The position numbers were made by a program, and so were the translations under genes. DNA of 64,000 nucleotides from Pirellulales bacterium (lineage in GTDB: Bacteria; Planctomycetota; Planctomycetia; Pirellulales; Lacipirellulaceae). Below the pieces are notes generated by a model. The model ran no database searches. It was not told the DNA's origin and saw only the letters and a list, made by a program, of their open reading frames with translations. Position 1 is the first letter of the stretch; every line of letters starts with the position of its first letter. The stretch lies in the NCBI GenBank assembly GCA_022448265.1, contig JAKVCC010000009.1, positions 21,137-85,136 on the forward strand, given 5' to 3'. This document shows, one piece after another, positions 3,088 through 12,775 of this stretch.

Positions 3088-4089
3088 ATGATCCGCCCCG
3101 CTGTGTTTACTGTGTGCGCTGCCTTGGGCGCCGGTGTGGGCATCTCCGCGGTGGCGCAAATCAAGTCCGATATAGACCCGTATCGCCGTCATGGATCGAC
3201 CCAGGTAAGTGAGTATCGGGTGGGCGCTTCGATCACTGCTACCCAGGGCGCCATCAGAAATGTTGTGGCCATGGTGGCGGTTCCACTAGAGTGCGATGAG
3301 CAGGCCGTGCAGGTCGCCGCCGAAGATGTCACGTCGCACTGCAAAGAGGTCCAGTACCGGCTACTTCGTGAGGGAGGGGCTCGCCAGTTGCTGATTTCGA
3401 TTCCCTATTTGCCGGCGGGTGAGGAAGCCCATGCCCTGATCACGTTTGAAGTTCGTACCAGTACCATCCTGCCACCCGCCGATACCTCGGATTTGCGGAT
3501 ACCGGTCAAACCAGACCGCGCGCTCAAGCGCTATTTGGGTCGTAGTCCGTACATCGAAACCAATCATGGGAAGATTAAAAAAGTCGCCCGTGCGATTTTT
3601 GCTGAGCTTGCCCCAGAACTCCCAGGGCAGGTGGCGGAGTCGCCTGCGGGGCCAATGAACGACTGGCAGCGCGTGGAAGCCATCTATGAGTACGTGCTTA
3701 GCCATGTCGAATACGTGGAAGGCGACGACAAAGGGGCCGTGCAGACATTGCAAGATGGTATGGGCGACTGCCAGAATATCAGCGCACTATTTATTGCCAT
3801 CTGTCGTACCAACAAGATTCCGGCTCGCATCGTTTGGGTTCACGAGCATAGCTACGCTGAATTTTGTTTGCAGGACGGCGAAGGCCGTCTGCACTGGTTT
3901 CCAGTCGAGTCGGCCGGCACCCGCGCCTTTGGAGCAATGCCCCTGGCGCGCACGATCTTGCAGAAGGGCGACAATTTTAAGGTTCCTGAGCGCCGCAAGG
4001 CGCTCCGCTACGCGTCCAACTTGATGGTCGCCGAAGGCCTGCCGGGGAGCGGCAAACCGAGCGTGCGGTATATTCAGGATCAGCTTTGA
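3088..4089 (+). CDS. Exported transglutaminase-like (papain-fold) protein
   Basis: This is a 333-residue protein with a signal peptide (about residues 1-23, ending SAVAQ). The C-terminal half holds the transglutaminase-like core: WQRVEAIYEYVLSHVEYVEG, then MGDCQNISALFIAICR with the candidate catalytic Cys, and HEHSYAEFCL with the candidate His, followed by HWFPVE. In this family (transglut_core) the Cys-His-Asp triad may act as a peptidase or amidase as well as a transglutaminase, so the reaction is not fixed. The N-terminal half resembles the beta-sandwich that often precedes this core in bacterial proteins. It stands alone on the plus strand with its own candidate promoter. GGAG lies 7 nt before the start. 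Confidence 0.8.
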   Translation: MIRPAVFTVCAALGAGVGISAVAQIKSDIDPYRRHGSTQVSEYRVGASITATQGAIRNVVAMVAVPLECDEQAVQVAAEDVTSHCKEVQYRLLREGGARQLLISIPYLPAGEEAHALITFEVRTSTILPPADTSDLRIPVKPDRALKRYLGRSPYIETNHGKIKKVARAIFAELAPELPGQVAESPAGPMNDWQRVEAIYEYVLSHVEYVEGDDKGAVQTLQDGMGDCQNISALFIAICRTNKIPARIVWVHEHSYAEFCLQDGEGRLHWFPVESAGTRAFGAMPLARTILQKGDNFKVPERRKALRYASNLMVAEGLPGSGKPSVRYIQDQL

Positions 4090-4184: not shown

Positions 4185-4730
4185 TCAGCGAAGCGCGGCC
4201 AACTCCCGATCCAGTACGCTTTCTATGCCGCGGAGCCGGTGACTTGACCAGATGGCGCTGCCTCCCGATCCGAAGATGATTACCGTCGGATAGATTTGAA
4301 TGCCCAGCATATCAAGTGTGGGGTGGGCGCCGTAGCCCACCGGCCACGTGAATCCGTCGATCGAGTCAACAAACTCTTTGAGTGGGGCGAGCTCTTGTTC
4401 CGAGTCGGGCGTGAGTCCCACAAAGGCCACGCCTTGTGGCTGGTAGGTGGCGACCAACTCGGCCAGGTCCGGCATGGCGGTCCGGCATGGGGGGCAATCC
4501 ATGAACCAGCAGTCGACCACTACAATTCGATTGGCCAGAGCGCTGGGGGAGGGCAGGGTGGGCGCATTGAGCCAACCGGCGGCCAGCATCTCCGGGAGCG
4601 GCGTGCCCACTGGCACCGGCATCTGCCCCTTGGAGCCTCGCTGAATCACGATCAGCATGGCCATAACCGTAACGATAAATCCCCAGAACAGAAGCCCGCC
4701 CGCCGGGCGGGGCTGCGACTCTTCATGCAT
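4185..4730 (-). CDS. Membrane-anchored TlpA/ResA-like thioredoxin
   Basis: This is a 181-residue protein. Residues about 12-30 form one transmembrane anchor, so the thioredoxin domain should face the periplasmic side. The domain carries VVVDCWFMDCPPCRTAMPDL, with a C-P-P-C active site, and a cis-Pro loop IYPTVIIFG near the C-terminus, as in TlpA/ResA/DsbE-type thiol reductases. Length and layout are normal for the family. It is the last gene of a minus-strand group that also contains the UGA-interrupted thioredoxin-like protein at 5243-6427, so a shared role in exported thiol chemistry is possible but inferred. Confidence 0.8.
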   Translation of the reverse strand: MHEESQPRPAGGLLFWGFIVTVMAMLIVIQRGSKGQMPVPVGTPLPEMLAAGWLNAPTLPSPSALANRIVVVDCWFMDCPPCRTAMPDLAELVATYQPQGVAFVGLTPDSEQELAPLKEFVDSIDGFTWPVGYGAHPTLDMLGIQIYPTVIIFGSGGSAIWSSHRLRGIESVLDRELAALR

Positions 4731-4772: not shown

Positions 4773-5228
4773 TCAACGATTAACACGACCCAAGCCGCTG
4801 CAGCAGATTCCCACCAGGGCTAGCAGCAGAGCCGAAGGCTCGGGTACCGCTGCGGTGGATGCCACAGCCAAGCTGGGCGGGCCACCAAAATCTCCCAGTA
4901 TTTGCATGAGATCCGCACCGTCCACGTCGTCGTCGCCATCCGCGTCGCTGGGCACGGGCGGAGGAGGCGTGCCGGTCAATCCGGAATTAGTTTCCCAGAT
5001 CGCCAGGTCGATCCCGTTGACGATGTCATCGCCATCTAGCATCGCGCCCGGCAACAGATCGAACGCTGGAGGCTGGATCTCCGAATAAGGGTGAACGTCA
5101 CCATAGATGTCGAGAATAGAATTAACAACCGGCCCACACAGGGAACTAGACCTCATTGATAGGCTCCGAGCCTGACTTTGCATGCGATTGTAAGAACTGA
5201 ACTTGCCAATGTCTAACAAGAATTGCAT
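4773..5228 (-). CDS. PEP-CTERM protein with dockerin-like repeats, probably a 5'-truncated remnant
   Basis: The C-terminus shows the tripartite PEP-CTERM sorting signal: VPEPSALLLALVGICC with a hydrophobic segment and a short basic end (GRVNR). Before it are two Asp-rich calcium-loop segments, DGDDIVNGIDLAIWE and DADGDDDVDGADLMQIL, spaced like the duplicated loops seen before such tails in planctomycetes. The first 60 or so residues do not look like a signal peptide, although PEP-CTERM substrates are normally exported. The next gene upstream starts only 15 bp away. This suggests the tail end of a formerly larger protein. It lies 42 bp upstream of the TlpA-like gene on the same strand. Confidence 0.5.
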   Translation of the reverse strand: MQFLLDIGKFSSYNRMQSQARSLSMRSSSLCGPVVNSILDIYGDVHPYSEIQPPAFDLLPGAMLDGDDIVNGIDLAIWETNSGLTGTPPPPVPSDADGDDDVDGADLMQILGDFGGPPSLAVASTAAVPEPSALLLALVGICCSGLGRVNR

Positions 5229-5242
5229 TCGGTGGGGACGGA

Positions 5243-6427
5243 TTACGAATCGGTATCGATCGATTCGAGTGCCGCGCGCAGCGGAATGTTACGCTGGCGG
5301 TTGTGCATGCGGTCAAACCGGGGGTAGGTCCCCTCGAACGTGCCGCGGAGCGCCGAGAAATTATTGGTCCCCTGAGGGTAGGCGAGTAGTAGCGCAAGCT
5401 TGCCGGTGTAGCTAAAGTGGTCATCGCCTTCGTCAGTTAGGGTGATGGTGCCGGTGAGTACCATAAGCCGGTGCTTGCCACGGCGGCCGGCCGGGGTGAG
5501 CGTGAGCGTGCCTTCGACCGAGGCGATCCGGTACGCCTCCTTGGTCTGTGGGTTGGTTCGCTCCATCACGCCGGGAGGGTAGACCTGACTGAGCCAGCCA
5601 CTGAGATCTGCAGCGTCGAGGGTGCGCGCCTCGCTTGACCAGGCCAAGAGTTCACGCTGGCCGCCGGTGATCGGCACGGCCTCGACGGTTGGTGCGCTGT
5701 AGGCCAGCATGCGGTTGTCCTCGAGCGTACACAGGATACGGACCGCCGGCGCGCCCGCCAGGTCGGGGAGGACGACCTGGCGGACTCTGCGCCGGCGGTT
5801 GGTGAGGTTCAACTGTTTGGTGGCAAGCTGGATCTCGCGGGCAGTATAAGCCGCCAAAGTTTGCGGGCCACGGCCCGGGTGTTGAAAGCCATCGAACCAG
5901 TGCACCAGGTTTCCTTCGGAGTCAAGAATCGCAATATCCACATTGCTTTGCCGCTGGCGGTGTTCTTGTGGCGAGCGCGGCTCAAAAGTTTTTTGCTGTT
6001 GACCGGGGCGGGGTTTATAACCGGCGCGAAATTTTTGCTGCCATACGGTGCGTATGGCCTCGGGCAGATCGGGATCGTCTCGGTGGCCATGCCACGAGGT
6101 CACAATATAGGGCTGCAGTGCGCGCACCACGGCAGCATTGACAAGTGAGGTCCCCCGGACCTGGGTAGCAGTAGCTCAGCAATGTCCGGAGGTGATATCG
6201 CCGTAGCGGGCATGGATCACGATCAGGCATACCGGCCGGTTCTCAAGGAGCGCGCGGTCTTGGGCGGCCGTAAGCGACTTCGCCCAGTCGAGCCGGTACA
6301 TAGCGAGCTGGTCGTCATCGGGGCGGATGGCATTGTAGCGGGCCAGCAGTTGCCCCACGTCTGGCTGATCGGCCAGTGCCGTGCCGGTGGTGAGCATAGT
6401 GAGCAGCGTGCAGACTATAAATCGCAT
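5243..6427 (-). CDS. Exported thioredoxin-like protein with an in-frame UGA after Cys (candidate selenoprotein or interrupted gene)
   Basis: ATG at 6425-6427 is preceded by AAGGAGAACGTG, a strong ribosome binding site. Residues 1-20 form a signal peptide (MRFIVCTLLTMLTTGTALA). The frame runs to codon 83 (TGC, Cys), then TGA at 6176-6178 (codon 84), then stays open in the same frame to 5243, giving 394 codons including the TGA. The sequence around it is PVCLIVIHARYGDITSGHC-TGA-ATATQ, which resembles a thioredoxin-fold strand followed by a redox motif. Downstream are YIVTSWHGH and a beta-rich C-terminal half with no family I recognise. A perfect stem-loop 19 nt after the TGA fits a bacterial SECIS. 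It may therefore encode Cys-Sec. Alternatives are a nonsense mutation (CGA or TGG to TGA), a sequencing error, or a restart at GTG 6130. No selenocysteine machinery is in this window. Confidence 0.6.
6148..6162 (-). promoter_or_regulatory. SECIS-like stem-loop downstream of the in-frame UGA
   Basis: On the minus strand AGGTCC-GGG-GGACCT forms a perfect 6-bp stem with a GGG loop. The apical loop begins 20 nt after the TGA at 6176-6178 (19-nt spacer). From memory, bacterial SECIS elements need an upper stem of at least 4 bp, a loop of 3-14 nt with G in one of its first two positions, and a 16-37 nt spacer; all are met here. A GC-rich 6-bp hairpin can also occur by chance. Confidence 0.4.
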
Positions 6428-7036: not shown

Positions 7037-10000
7037 TCACTCGATCCGCCGCCGCAGGCGAATGGTGCGCTGGGCGTTGTGATCGGAACCTGGCTCAAAT
7101 GCTGCAGGTATCGAGCGATCGATGATCGCAAACTCGCGTACGCGCTGGATATCGCCCGTGTCGCTGCCCGCCTCTTTGCCAAATTGGTAGCCATCTGGGT
7201 AGACACGGTGGTAAAGGTGCTCCAGCTCGTCTTCGCTGAGTGATGGGTGGGCCGCTCCAAAGGCTTGGCGATCCGGAGCCTCATCCACTTCAAAGAACCC
7301 GACGGTGACCCATGCGGCAAACACGTTGGACCGCGTGGTCGTTAAGTTGTCGAGTCTGGTAAGCGGCTGATAGCGGAAATGCGAATTGCGGTTGTAGTCG
7401 TTGTAGGGCTGTGGGTTGGAGCTGGCTGCAAACAAAGGTTCCCCGGCAAGCGCACCTTCCCTCAACATTGTGCAATTCACGCCTTCTTGCGTCATGTCGG
7501 TCGAGCCCAAGGAATCCAGCGGCACCAGATCGCCCGCATCTGCCGAGCGGAAGGGGTTAGCAAAAAACGTGGGGCTGGCGGGATCGAGTTGCAACAAGTC
7601 CCCCCCCGTGCCGTAGCTGCGGCGGCTGGCCACAAACGTTTCCCAGCCGGGCCCAGGATGGGCGACCGAACCAATACTGCGATGAAACAAGCCGTTGTAG
7701 ACCGATTGCGACGAAATCGTATTGGAATTCACCCGGCCCGGTTCGCGATAATTCGAGATACGATTAAACGGGGGTTGGCGACGGTAGCGCGGGTCGCTTC
7801 TGGAGTCAACGACATTGCCGAAGTTTTCCGGATTTAACCACGTTTCGGTGTCTACAAACGGGCTGGGGACGTGCAGGTATTCAAGCACACGGTGCAATCC
7901 CACGATACCGGCGTTGGTGGCCGTGCCGTTATCCGCGCGGAAGAAATTCAGCAAGTGTCCGTGCCGACCGTCGACTTCCAGGGTCGGCTGCACCGTTGCG
8001 CCGGCAATGTTTAACTGTTCAAGCAGATCGACCGTGTCGTCTGCAGTTGGCGTATTGTATTTCTCATTGCGTGCCACTGCGCCACTATACGAAAACGTAT
8101 GCAGTAGTTGCGACGAGCAATATGCAGGAACTTGGAGCAGTTCGTTGGCGCTGATGTAGGGCCGATTATTCCAGACGAGCCACGGAAAAGGAACCGGCTG
8201 CCCGTCCTCATTGGTGGGGACGAGTCGATCGGTTTGTGGATCGGTGACCGCGCGCCGAAACGGCTCATTCATATATCCTAATGTGCAATCAGGCACGGCT
8301 TCGAAGTAGTGATCGGGCGCCTGGTCCATCCCATCCCTCTGATTGGGCAAACACTTGTCGCCGTGGATCCGCTCAGTGGCCCACAGATTATTATCGTTTG
8401 CCGGCGGGGCTGGTTCTATATTCGGGGGCAAGCTCCGAGAAAAAGCCTCGTATGGTTGGGTTGCGTCGTTGTCGCGTCCCCGCTGCAAGCTGGCAAAGCT
8501 TGCAGCGGCGTAGATATTGCTGAATTCGACACTCCCGCGCTTTTCGACTTCGGACAGGCCATTGAATACCGTAACATTGGTGCCCATCGAGTCGACCGTC
8601 AAATAGGGGTTGGAGTCCTTGTCAAACGGCAGCAGGGGATTTGCCAAACGCTGGAGGTAGATCCAGCTAAAGGCGGGAATGGTCCGTACGTCCTGTTCGG
8701 CCAGCGGTAGTTTAAGGCTAAGGCGGATTTCGTCGTCGTCTCGGAGGTCGTCCAGCGGTATATCCAGGATGGGGTCATACTGTTTCATGTCCGGATCCCA
8801 CTTGCTGACCGGATAGCCATCTGCTGGCTCCGACAGCGTAAAGCGGCGCTGTCCAGTTACCGTTTGATCGATAATCGCCACCGAACACATCGATCCGTGC
8901 GAGTCGCCGGCGAGGCGCGGCACGACCGTGCCATCGTCAGCCGGCGAAGTCATGGGGAAGGCGTCAGTGTGGTTCATGACTGGATTGCCACCTGCTCCCA
9001 GTACGGCCACGGCGTCGCTCACTTCTGGGGCAGTTTTTAATTGGATGCAGCGCTGCGAGCTTTGACTAGAGTTTTCACCGAACTTGGCAACGTATACACC
9101 GTTCGATGTTTGTTCACCCGAGCCCACCACCATGTAGCGGCCGGGTCGCACCGAAGGAACCGGATTTCCCAAATCGTTGAAAAACGCTACTCCGTCGTCC
9201 TCGTACGCTGGATCACGCCCAACAAAATAAACACTCCGATGGGCAACTCCTCGACCGGCTAGCGGGACGATTCCCTGCAGGTCGTTGTCGGGCCGATGCT
9301 GCGTGTTAGGGCTGTCCGGATCTTTTTCAGGGCCACCGTCTTTGTAGACCATCAAACGCCACACAGGCGAACCGGTGTCGGTAGTGTTGTGCGTGCGCGC
9401 CAAATCGATACCCATGTCGTAGTGATCCTGGCCATCAACCACGATGTCGTGCGTGTCGGCATTGGCCGCGGGATTGGCTGGCCAAGGGTTGTAGATTTCG
9501 ATGAACGCGGCCCCCTGCGGGCGCGACTGTTGATCATAGCTAAGATCGTACGGAGGAGCGTCCTCATCTTCTGGATCGACCCCCACCGGCAGAACCTTGG
9601 CTTTCTCGTTGCTGTCGCTTTCCTCGAGCGAGGCCTCCTCTCCCTGCGTGTCGATCGTGCGCCGGTCGTGCCATGCGAGCGTTTCGGTGAGCACCAGCTC
9701 CGGGCGTTCAGCTCCCCAAACAACAGCGCGCTCGTTGACGTTATCTTCTACGCCATTGGGGCTAGTAGTGCCGGCTACGTCGCCGTCTACTTCCCAGCCG
9801 TTGAATGGATTTTCATCATATTCAAACGGGGTCATGCAATTGTCGGGATCCCGGAAGTCTACAACGTTGATAGCCCACTGGGCCAAGCGGCGGGTCCTGG
9901 CCTTGCCCTCGACGGTGGTCAAGTCGTAGGGATCCACCAGCGTCATTGCCAATACGTACAGATCCCGTGCCAATAGGTGCCGGCGATGATTTTGCAAGGT

Positions 10001-12775
10001 GGCCAGATTGGCAGGGGTATTGGTTGGGAAGAGTTCCCAGGGGTCGACGTGGTTGCCGTCACCATCGGAATCCAGTCCGTCGCGATCTAAGTCGTCGTGT
10101 ATGCTGCCCTTTTCAGTGTCGGTAAATCTTTCCTTGGGCGAAGCGGGGTCCACCGGTGCCACATTGCCGTCAGCGTCTGTAAATTCCCAGAACGACGACT
10201 CCTGTTCGCCCGGATCGTCGACCACTCCATTATTGTCGTCGTCACGGTTATTGCCGACCGGGCGGTTGATATCCAACCGGAGACCATCGGCCAGGTCATG
10301 CGGCAGCAGCTTCAACATCTCACTGTGCAAGCGCTCAGCGTGTGTGACTGGCACGTCCTTCGGTAAACCTTGCAAGGATCTGGCCAGTCCAATGCGGAGT
10401 CGGTACTCCAGCAGGTCGCTAAAGCTAACACTGGTCGTCGTACGGGGCACATGCGTCTGTCCGTCCGCGGCTCTGTGTCCCATCACGTCGTCAAAATCGT
10501 CGTTGTTGGGGTTCTCCGGCGCATTGTCCTGTCCGTCGGCTCCCCAGATCATCCACGGCGGCAACTGCACGTTGGGCACTGGGAGGTCGTAGCTATCGGT
10601 GGTTAGCTGACTCCGCGACGAGAGGAGCGAGAGGAAATCGCCCAACTCCCACAGGCGCGATGGCAACGTGCCAGCATCGGCGTCGTAGGCGCGGAGCAGG
10701 CGCTCTAATTCAGCTGCTGAATACGGCTCATCGGCCGAACCGGACTGTTCGCCACGCGGACTGCCCTCGGATAATCGCAGCTCATACGGCGAGTCGGAGC
10801 CCAGGGACATGAAATCACCGATTGCCTCGTAAACGGGCTGGCCCCAGTTGTTGACTCCCAGTCGATAGCGGCCATGAAGATCGGGCGGCGACACGTACGC
10901 GCTCAAGCGGCTACGGCTGTTTACCAATCTGGGAATGCCTTGTTGCTTGAGCTGCGCTAAAAAATCGTGATCTTTGCGCGCACCGGGGGTCCGTTCTACC
11001 AAATCCGAAGGTGCGCGATTGGCCATCCCGTTGCCATCAATTCCATCTCCATAACGGCCTGGATAATTGCTGTTGCCCCGCAGCACAGCATCGTAACGCG
11101 ATCCACTGTCACCAGTCAGGACCGGTGCCAGGCTGATGTCTGCCGGACCAAATCCTTGTCCCGTAGGCAATAGGCTTGAGTACTCATTCAGCAGTCCCGC
11201 AATTGGCTTGGATATGGGACGATTGTTGTCGGCCTGGACATGCTCAATCGTTCCATGGGCATTCACGTTCAAACGCCCGTCGAGATCCACCACCAGTAGC
11301 GCTGCCATGGGTTTTACGCGCCGCCCGTCGGGCAGTGTCATTGCCGGCGCGCCGAAATCTACCCATATGCTGTCGCGGACACCGTCGTTGTCGTTGTCGA
11401 CGTCCCACGGGCCGTAGATCATGTGATTGATTAAGGTCTGCTGCGAATCGTTATTGTTTGTTGCAAGGGCCGCCGCGAAGTCTGGGTTGCTGCCGGTAAA
11501 ATTGGGGTGGTCCATCCAGCTAGGGCGCAGCAATACTTTCCGCAGCATATTAGCATCGTCCAAGGCGTTTTGACTCGACCAGTAGTTGATTAGCGCCGGG
11601 CGATGGAGCGACGGAATCGGCACCATCGGCGGCGGGTTCGAACCTACAGCCGAGCCTTGCAAACTACTGGAGTTAAAAATACCGGTCGTCGGCTCGGTAG
11701 GATTCACCGGCATCAGTGCCAGTATCATATTTTGGAAGTCGACTGCGTCGTACGATTCGTCACTGGCGCCCAGGCCTGCTGGGCCTACCTCGGCCAGCCG
11801 TTCCTCCAACGCTTCAAGCTGCTCGTCCAGCGAAAGCCCGTAGTAGGTGATCAATTCTGCATCGGTGAACAAGAACTTAGGATCCACGCTTTCCGCATCC
11901 AGGAAAGCCGAGTTGGGCAAAAGGGCGATGGGCCGGCCGGTGCCATTGATCATCTCTTCTTCATTTAAGCGGGCAGTACCGGCCGCGGCCAAACGGTTGT
12001 AGCCGGCGCCGGTGCCGTTAAACGGCTGGCCATTAATTAGTGCGCGGGTGCTGGGCTGAAGGCCTAGCTCTGAGGATATTATCGGTCGGGTTGCGTTGAG
12101 CGGCAGCAGCGTAAATGTCGCGACGGCCGTGCTAACACCGGTTTGCTGGTAGTTGTAGTGTACGATGCGTGAGGTGAGTCCTGGGGCGGAGCCGCCCAGG
12201 AGTGTAAGCAGGCGGCCATTGTAATAATCAGTGGTTGACTTTAGCGTCGCCGACGTTGCCGCGAGGTCGACATCCACGCCTACCCAGAAAAACTGGTTCG
12301 CGACTTTATTTAGCATCTCCCCATCGAGTTCGACTGTGCGGTCGAATGCGGTGCGATCTACAAATTGGGCCGGCGCAGAGGGGCTGGGACCGATCTCCAC
12401 ACTGTCGTTGCCATACATGTCGCGCAGCAAGCTATGGTATCGCAGCACCGAGTGCTCGTTATTCGTATCGCGGATGAGCTGGTTGATCAATTGTTCCAGC
12501 AGGGCTTCTTGATCGATTTCCAGAAACGAGGTTTCCGTGGCCCGGGCCATGGCCCGGTTCATCTTGCGGAAGTGATTGGCCGAAACGATGTAGGCTGTGC
12601 CGATCATCAGAAACAGCGTCAGCATGCTGAGTACGACCAGCAACAGGATGCCGCGGCGAGGCGCGAGGCGCACACCGCGAGGCGAGAGTTTCGGGCTCTT
12701 GGGCCTAGAGAGCGCACAGTGCGGGCCTCGTGCATCGTACTTCGCTACTCTTGGCTTTTTATTTAGGATATTCAT
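7037..12775 (-). CDS. Giant GspK-like pseudopilin-type protein of the pilus/secretion locus
   Basis: This is a 1912-residue protein. A 42-residue basic leader ends in ...PRRG and is followed by ILLLVVLSMLTLFLMIGTAY, a prepilin-like hydrophobic helix that lacks Glu at +5. This matches the GspK type of minor pseudopilin, which is known to lack Glu5. The remainder is hydrophilic and should be outside the membrane. It contains several Asp-rich loops that look like calcium sites: DVDNDNDGVRDSIWVD, NRDDDNNGVVDD and DRDGLDSDGDGNHVD. Ordinary GspK proteins are only about 300-350 residues, so this is a large expansion. It is the last gene of the operon-like series 24370 to 7037 and lies about 110 bp after the preceding prepilin. 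A GAGAGAAGAAGG ribosome binding site supports the ATG at 12775. Confidence 0.7.
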   Translation of the reverse strand: MNILNKKPRVAKYDARGPHCALSRPKSPKLSPRGVRLAPRRGILLLVVLSMLTLFLMIGTAYIVSANHFRKMNRAMARATETSFLEIDQEALLEQLINQLIRDTNNEHSVLRYHSLLRDMYGNDSVEIGPSPSAPAQFVDRTAFDRTVELDGEMLNKVANQFFWVGVDVDLAATSATLKSTTDYYNGRLLTLLGGSAPGLTSRIVHYNYQQTGVSTAVATFTLLPLNATRPIISSELGLQPSTRALINGQPFNGTGAGYNRLAAAGTARLNEEEMINGTGRPIALLPNSAFLDAESVDPKFLFTDAELITYYGLSLDEQLEALEERLAEVGPAGLGASDESYDAVDFQNMILALMPVNPTEPTTGIFNSSSLQGSAVGSNPPPMVPIPSLHRPALINYWSSQNALDDANMLRKVLLRPSWMDHPNFTGSNPDFAAALATNNNDSQQTLINHMIYGPWDVDNDNDGVRDSIWVDFGAPAMTLPDGRRVKPMAALLVVDLDGRLNVNAHGTIEHVQADNNRPISKPIAGLLNEYSSLLPTGQGFGPADISLAPVLTGDSGSRYDAVLRGNSNYPGRYGDGIDGNGMANRAPSDLVERTPGARKDHDFLAQLKQQGIPRLVNSRSRLSAYVSPPDLHGRYRLGVNNWGQPVYEAIGDFMSLGSDSPYELRLSEGSPRGEQSGSADEPYSAAELERLLRAYDADAGTLPSRLWELGDFLSLLSSRSQLTTDSYDLPVPNVQLPPWMIWGADGQDNAPENPNNDDFDDVMGHRAADGQTHVPRTTTSVSFSDLLEYRLRIGLARSLQGLPKDVPVTHAERLHSEMLKLLPHDLADGLRLDINRPVGNNRDDDNNGVVDDPGEQESSFWEFTDADGNVAPVDPASPKERFTDTEKGSIHDDLDRDGLDSDGDGNHVDPWELFPTNTPANLATLQNHRRHLLARDLYVLAMTLVDPYDLTTVEGKARTRRLAQWAINVVDFRDPDNCMTPFEYDENPFNGWEVDGDVAGTTSPNGVEDNVNERAVVWGAERPELVLTETLAWHDRRTIDTQGEEASLEESDSNEKAKVLPVGVDPEDEDAPPYDLSYDQQSRPQGAAFIEIYNPWPANPAANADTHDIVVDGQDHYDMGIDLARTHNTTDTGSPVWRLMVYKDGGPEKDPDSPNTQHRPDNDLQGIVPLAGRGVAHRSVYFVGRDPAYEDDGVAFFNDLGNPVPSVRPGRYMVVGSGEQTSNGVYVAKFGENSSQSSQRCIQLKTAPEVSDAVAVLGAGGNPVMNHTDAFPMTSPADDGTVVPRLAGDSHGSMCSVAIIDQTVTGQRRFTLSEPADGYPVSKWDPDMKQYDPILDIPLDDLRDDDEIRLSLKLPLAEQDVRTIPAFSWIYLQRLANPLLPFDKDSNPYLTVDSMGTNVTVFNGLSEVEKRGSVEFSNIYAAASFASLQRGRDNDATQPYEAFSRSLPPNIEPAPPANDNNLWATERIHGDKCLPNQRDGMDQAPDHYFEAVPDCTLGYMNEPFRRAVTDPQTDRLVPTNEDGQPVPFPWLVWNNRPYISANELLQVPAYCSSQLLHTFSYSGAVARNEKYNTPTADDTVDLLEQLNIAGATVQPTLEVDGRHGHLLNFFRADNGTATNAGIVGLHRVLEYLHVPSPFVDTETWLNPENFGNVVDSRSDPRYRRQPPFNRISNYREPGRVNSNTISSQSVYNGLFHRSIGSVAHPGPGWETFVASRRSYGTGGDLLQLDPASPTFFANPFRSADAGDLVPLDSLGSTDMTQEGVNCTMLREGALAGEPLFAASSNPQPYNDYNRNSHFRYQPLTRLDNLTTTRSNVFAAWVTVGFFEVDEAPDRQAFGAAHPSLSEDELEHLYHRVYPDGYQFGKEAGSDTGDIQRVREFAIIDRSIPAAFEPGSDHNAQRTIRLRRRIE

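Follow-up and report, generated by a model that had tools for sequence, protein, structure and literature searches.

Can an in-frame TGA interrupting an otherwise open gene of a Pirellulales bacterium (assembly GCA_022448265.1, contig JAKVCC010000009.1) be read as selenocysteine (Sec), or is it a mutation? The gene lies on the minus strand of a 64,000-nucleotide stretch of this contig (the window), and the initial annotation had proposed it, from the sequence alone, as an exported thioredoxin-like selenoprotein with an adjacent Cys-Sec pair, a fresh nonsense mutation being the alternative. The analyses below indicated that the TGA almost certainly encodes Sec, and that the gene belongs to an apparently undescribed family of planctomycete proteins, inferred to be exported and of redox type, in which every copy found that covers this codon keeps TGA there.

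The in-frame TGA and its hairpin

Translation of the frame with TGA read as Sec (U) gave 394 residues, with a single TGA at codon 84 in the context SGHC-U-ATAT and a TAA stop (Table 1). A perfect inverted repeat, AGGTCC-GGG-GGACCT, followed the TGA. Its stem started 13 nt after the TGA, while the 19 nt given in the initial annotation was the distance to the loop. A stem-loop just 3′ of the UGA with G in a small apical loop is a described feature of bacterial selenoprotein genes (PMC1088965). To see if this hairpin was unusually stable, its folding energy was compared with that of shuffled sequences. It folded no better than these (z = +1.0 on 50 nt, 173 of 200 shuffles folding at least as well; z = +0.7 on 33 nt, 155 of 200), indicating that the hairpin taken alone was no evidence and that the case rested on homologues. 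Residues 1–19, a hydrophobic stretch ending ALA before DQ, resembled a signal peptide by eye.

Table 1. Features of the selenoprotein gene and neighbouring frames (positions in the window).
Feature	Coordinates	Strand	Residues
Selenoprotein gene, TAA stop	5243–6427	−	1–394
Probable signal peptide (by eye)	6371–6427	−	1–19
Predicted thioredoxin-fold domain	5801–6301	−	43–209
Codon TGC preceding Sec	6179–6181	−	Cys83
Codon TGA	6176–6178	−	Sec84
Place of the second Cys of a CxxC site	6167–6169	−	Ala87
SECIS-type hairpin, 6-bp stem, GGG loop	6148–6162	−	
Predicted C-terminal beta-rich domain, fold unassigned	5246–5752	−	226–394
Transglutaminase-core protein	3088–4089	+	
CPPC thioredoxin-like protein	4185–4730		
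Frame with a PEP-CTERM motif below its cut-off	4773–5228	−	151 in total
Open frame just upstream of the gene	7037–12775	−	1912 in total

Conservation of the TGA codon

To see if the TGA was kept in relatives, genome collections were searched. A scan by short peptide patterns, which reaches close relatives only, gave 27 stretches including two relatives, L009 (Pirellulales MAG ALOHA_ZT_43, 76% identical) and L010 (Planctomycetes UBA1662, 52–54%). Both carried TGA at the same codon in the same context, and both ended the gene with TGA as a normal stop. A 36% identical second copy in genome G214, whose contig C202 matched L009, also read SGHC-U. Of 8 stretches of viral contigs matching a pattern, none encoded a relative. 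A profile search of 392 genomes of the phylum gave 48 rows in 35 genomes (the window's own genome included), of which 43 had exactly one TGA, 5 had no stop and none had TAA or TAG. A search of 397 genomes of the class gave nine more full-length copies, each with one TGA. Within the own family of genomes, only 2 of 43 had the gene.

Twenty-three full-length copies, 29–76% identical to that of the window, were aligned without centring on the UGA. All Sec codons fell in one column, and 21 positions were invariant, among them Gly81, His82, Sec84, Arg91 and Gly92. The residue before Sec was Cys in 18 and Thr in 5, indicating that a Cys-Sec pair, as emphasized in the initial annotation, was not obligatory. 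With two partial copies (L035, with its N-terminal part in another frame, and L037, at a contig edge and with a second TGA), TGA was found in 25 of 25 copies covering the codon, in 24 genomes, and none had Cys, TAA or TAG; two fragments (L036 and L149) did not cover the codon and were not counted. These genome samples were draws (296 genomes of the order, 392 of the phylum twice, 43 of the family, 397 of the class, and 29 and 23 of two other classes), and in the three large searches only about 4–5 candidates per genome were scored, so lower-ranked relatives, including those with Cys, can have been missed. Between the window gene and L009, dN/dS was 0.167/2.45 before and 0.160/1.09 after the TGA, indicating that both parts were kept as protein.

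Selenocysteine machinery

The own genome carried, side by side on one contig (C19; L023:8518–14564), a tRNA-Sec with anticodon TCA, an oxidoreductase/SelD fusion, selB and selA. The fusion passed the cut-off of the SelD model TIGR00476, but its best-scoring model was TIGR04369 “fusion_not_SelD”, below that model's cut-off. A second tRNA-Sec candidate lay at C6:270–354 (47.7 bits against 47).

SelA passed its cut-off in 33 of the 36 genomes with a hit in the first searches, against 10 of 40 listed non-hit genomes (Fisher p 2e-9), the latter being near relatives and not a random draw. The three exceptions were G435, which had no SelA match and whose distant relative L052 had Cys at the column; G571, with a SelA fragment at a contig edge; and G506, which was 67% complete and had a TGA-bearing relative. 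In a second set of 76 genomes from the later searches, 49 of 53 with at least one TGA row and 17 of 23 with only stop-free rows passed. The four TGA-bearing genomes that did not pass were G026 and G759 (no match), G838 (a 3e-9 match) and G469 (a contig-edge fragment of 263.5 bits, cut-off 267.9); in G026, G759 and G838 the TGA-bearing genes were distant relatives. Of the 24 genomes whose full-length-family copy covered the codon, 23 passed. Seven of 13 listed genus relatives passed the SelA cut-off but had no hit to this gene, so Sec use does not imply the gene.

Conservation and covariation of the stem

To see if the stem 3′ of the UGA was kept in relatives, base pairing was compared with permuted and slid controls. 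In the superfamily the stem occupied nucleotides 20–25 and 32–37, counted from the T of UGA as 0. Over 48 distinct non-core sequences 235 of 288 cells paired, while permuting the 3′ partners gave 213.4 (sd 3.2; 0 of 5000 permutations reached the observed value) and sliding the partners by 1–3 gave 111–173. In the core 119 of 150 paired in that register (permuted 110.7, sd 2.3, 2 of 5000; slid 74–105). The subgroup of the window used the register of the AGGTCC-GGG-GGACCT hairpin, which was intact in 7 of 7 sequences. Permutation ignores relatedness, but sliding keeps it.

The most telling changes were coupled, and some were synonymous. With Val GTG at codon +8 (RVSS genes) the Ser at +10 was TCA (7 of 7, two of them identical stretches), and with Ala GCG in the same context (RASS genes) it was TCG (4 of 4). 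Among 85 Ser codons of the seven RVSS matches, TCA occurred 7 times, that is, only there. Where codon +8 was Thr, codon +11 was Phe (6 of 6), swapping a G-C for an A-U pair. Arg at +7 was AGA or AGG in 24 of 42 cases against 127 of 1316 other Arg codons of the same genes, and was never CGC, the commonest elsewhere.

Predicted fold and superfamily

An AlphaFold model from three sequences was of moderate quality (mean pLDDT 66), and the stretch 73–96 containing Sec84 was below 50. The predicted thioredoxin-fold domain matched thioredoxins of DsbD-gamma, DsbH, AGR2 and ERp19 type (best Z 10.2, rmsd 3.9, 121 aligned residues; Foldseek DsbH E 2.7e-3, prob 0.99). By spacing to the conserved motif further on, judged by eye, Sec84 fell on the first Cys of CxxC in DsbD-like relatives, while the second Cys was absent; position +3 was Ala, Gly or Ser in 46 of 49 superfamily rows and Cys in 1. 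The C-terminal domain (mean pLDDT 81) had no confident match: the best Z was 7.4 (OmpA- and porin-type barrels, tied rows) and the best Foldseek E was 0.078. A comparison with PDB sequences gave one match, at E 0.56.

Profile comparison tied the family, column on column, to three other Sec-bearing groups at 99% probability; it belonged to a larger planctomycete superfamily rich in Sec. Among 49 aligned domains 47 had U and 2 had Cys at the column, although these rows were cut around the U, which leans the alignment towards one column, and position −1 was Cys in 32 of 49. The class search gave 93 rows, 61 with exactly one TGA and 32 without a stop. Nineteen of these 32 plus one row from another of the large searches were retrieved, and of the 19 of these 20 that covered the column, read by eye, 15 had Cys, 2 Gly, 1 Asp and 1 Pro; 20 further TGA rows all had U there, also by eye. 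UGA or Cys was the rule in the superfamily. One Cys group had SCANSRFFR-like motifs (L070, L091, L140, L141, L146 and L148). The four paralogues with Gly, Gly, Asp or Pro (L131, L133, L134 and L136, in G859 and G838) kept the preceding Cys, so not every relative needs a chalcogen there; G838 had no SelA over the cut-off, but G859 had one.

Comparison with known families

The window protein matched no NCBIfam model (release of June 2026) and no Pfam model at E≤1. Of three further full-length copies compared with NCBIfam at E≤0.01, L122 and L125 had no match and L126 had one (ExoR, 2e-4, 20.7 bits against a cut-off of 450, residues 212–295). The VPGUxxT thioredoxin-like (seleno)proteins (NF041382 and NF041383) are Sec proteins of the same genomes (4 of 36 over the NF041383 cut-off), and two distant superfamily members matched these models weakly (L050, 4e-8; L038, 1.3e-4), but profile comparison with the window's family gave only 13.8%. 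The four members over the cut-off (L072–L075) had U-x-x-C and a second domain resembling MsrA. In three of them (L073, L074 and L075, in G337, G308 and G492) this domain had a second in-frame TGA (GMTUYWVGE, GMSUYWVGE), where L072 had Cys, suggesting possible double-Sec thioredoxin-MsrA fusions. Distant superfamily members reached Thioredoxin_7 weakly, below its gathering score; the window protein has U84-A-T-A87 in place of CxxC and an extra C-terminal beta domain. The Trx7/PDZ domain-containing (seleno)protein NF041199, a Thioredoxin_7-type selenoprotein listed with a CxxU motif (PMC13188914), matched one distant superfamily member weakly (L050, 1.2e-3).

A 2026 review lists 119 prokaryotic selenoprotein families (PMC13188914); we recognized this one in no row of the parts of its table that were read, and its text held no word beginning with “planctomyc”. 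Selenoproteins of two planctomycetes have been reported (PMC4807772), and the supplementary table of that study could hold relatives. No description of the family was found in the literature searched (also PMC2398784 and PMC9312934), which did not include bioRxiv or most subscription journals. Standard gene calling would cut this protein in two, so it and its relatives are probably truncated in annotated proteomes.

Interpretation of the locus

The conserved UGA, the Sec machinery, the conserved and covarying stem and the predicted fold supported, with high confidence although without peptide, 75Se or activity data, that the gene encodes a selenoprotein, inferred to be exported, in which UGA at codon 84 is read as Sec with the help of SelB, tRNA-Sec and the hairpin just 3′ of the codon. 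We propose that Sec84 acts outside the cytoplasm as a one-chalcogen redox nucleophile, the selenolate attacking an oxidised substrate (peroxide, sulfenate or disulfide) and the selenenyl intermediate being resolved by Cys83 where it exists, otherwise by an outside thiol, with His82 and Arg91 as possible helpers because they are invariant. Export, redox catalysis, the substrate and the resolving partner are inferred.

A fresh nonsense mutation, pseudogene or sequencing or assembly error might be suspected from a single stop in a draft genome, but was highly unlikely because the same UGA occurred in all copies covering the codon, down to 29% identity, and dN/dS after it was low. Reading of a conserved UGA as another amino acid, by a changed genetic code or near-cognate read-through, was very unlikely given tRNA-Sec, selA and selB, the use of TGA as the normal stop of the same gene in L009 and L010, Cys as the usual replacement in distant relatives and the codon-spaced stem. 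A true stop, with a short upstream protein and a separate downstream one, or a regulatory stop, might be suspected from a downstream GTG at 6130 that opens a 295-codon frame, but was equally improbable: the predicted thioredoxin fold spans the UGA, only UGA and never UAA or UAG was found in the rows of the three large searches, and three distant Cys rows (L052, L070 and L091) read straight through.

The main functional rival was that Sec serves as a soft-metal or metalloid ligand, with Cys83 and perhaps His82, rather than as a redox catalyst. The lack of a second Cys at +3, the invariant Gly81 and His82, the Cys kept at −1 in the four paralogues without Sec, and the mercury-related names of several CU-motif selenoproteins (PMC13188914) would fit this. 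However, the position at the first-Cys place of CxxC and the CxxC or Cys relatives pointed to redox chemistry, and Cys83 was Thr in 5 of 23 copies, making a metal role unlikely though not excluded.

It is possible, though still doubtful, that this is an obligate-Sec family spread over several planctomycete classes with no Cys counterpart (in the genomes searched Cys was found only in distant superfamily members), and one branch of a large, apparently uncounted planctomycete superfamily of Sec proteins (motif roughly U-x-x-[AGS]-x3-R) in which the SECIS stem lies over conserved codons and forces paired amino-acid and synonymous changes. The authors of deep-Sep note that candidates without Cys homologues may be filtered out and that all known selenoproteins now seem to have them (PMC12013277); this family is a concrete case against which to test that. 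The superfamily offers dozens of natural SECIS elements under both RNA and protein constraint, useful for Sec prediction, and points to selenium-based redox chemistry in the planctomycete cell envelope.

Neighbouring genes

The CPPC thioredoxin-like neighbour noted in the initial annotation was confirmed. To see if it was a fixed partner, 10 neighbours at five other loci (L116–L120, both flanks at three of them, frames chosen by a crude script) were compared with Pfam. No thioredoxin-like gene was among them, suggesting that the CPPC protein is probably not a fixed partner. The 1912-residue open frame just upstream of the gene had no Pfam match at E≤0.01.
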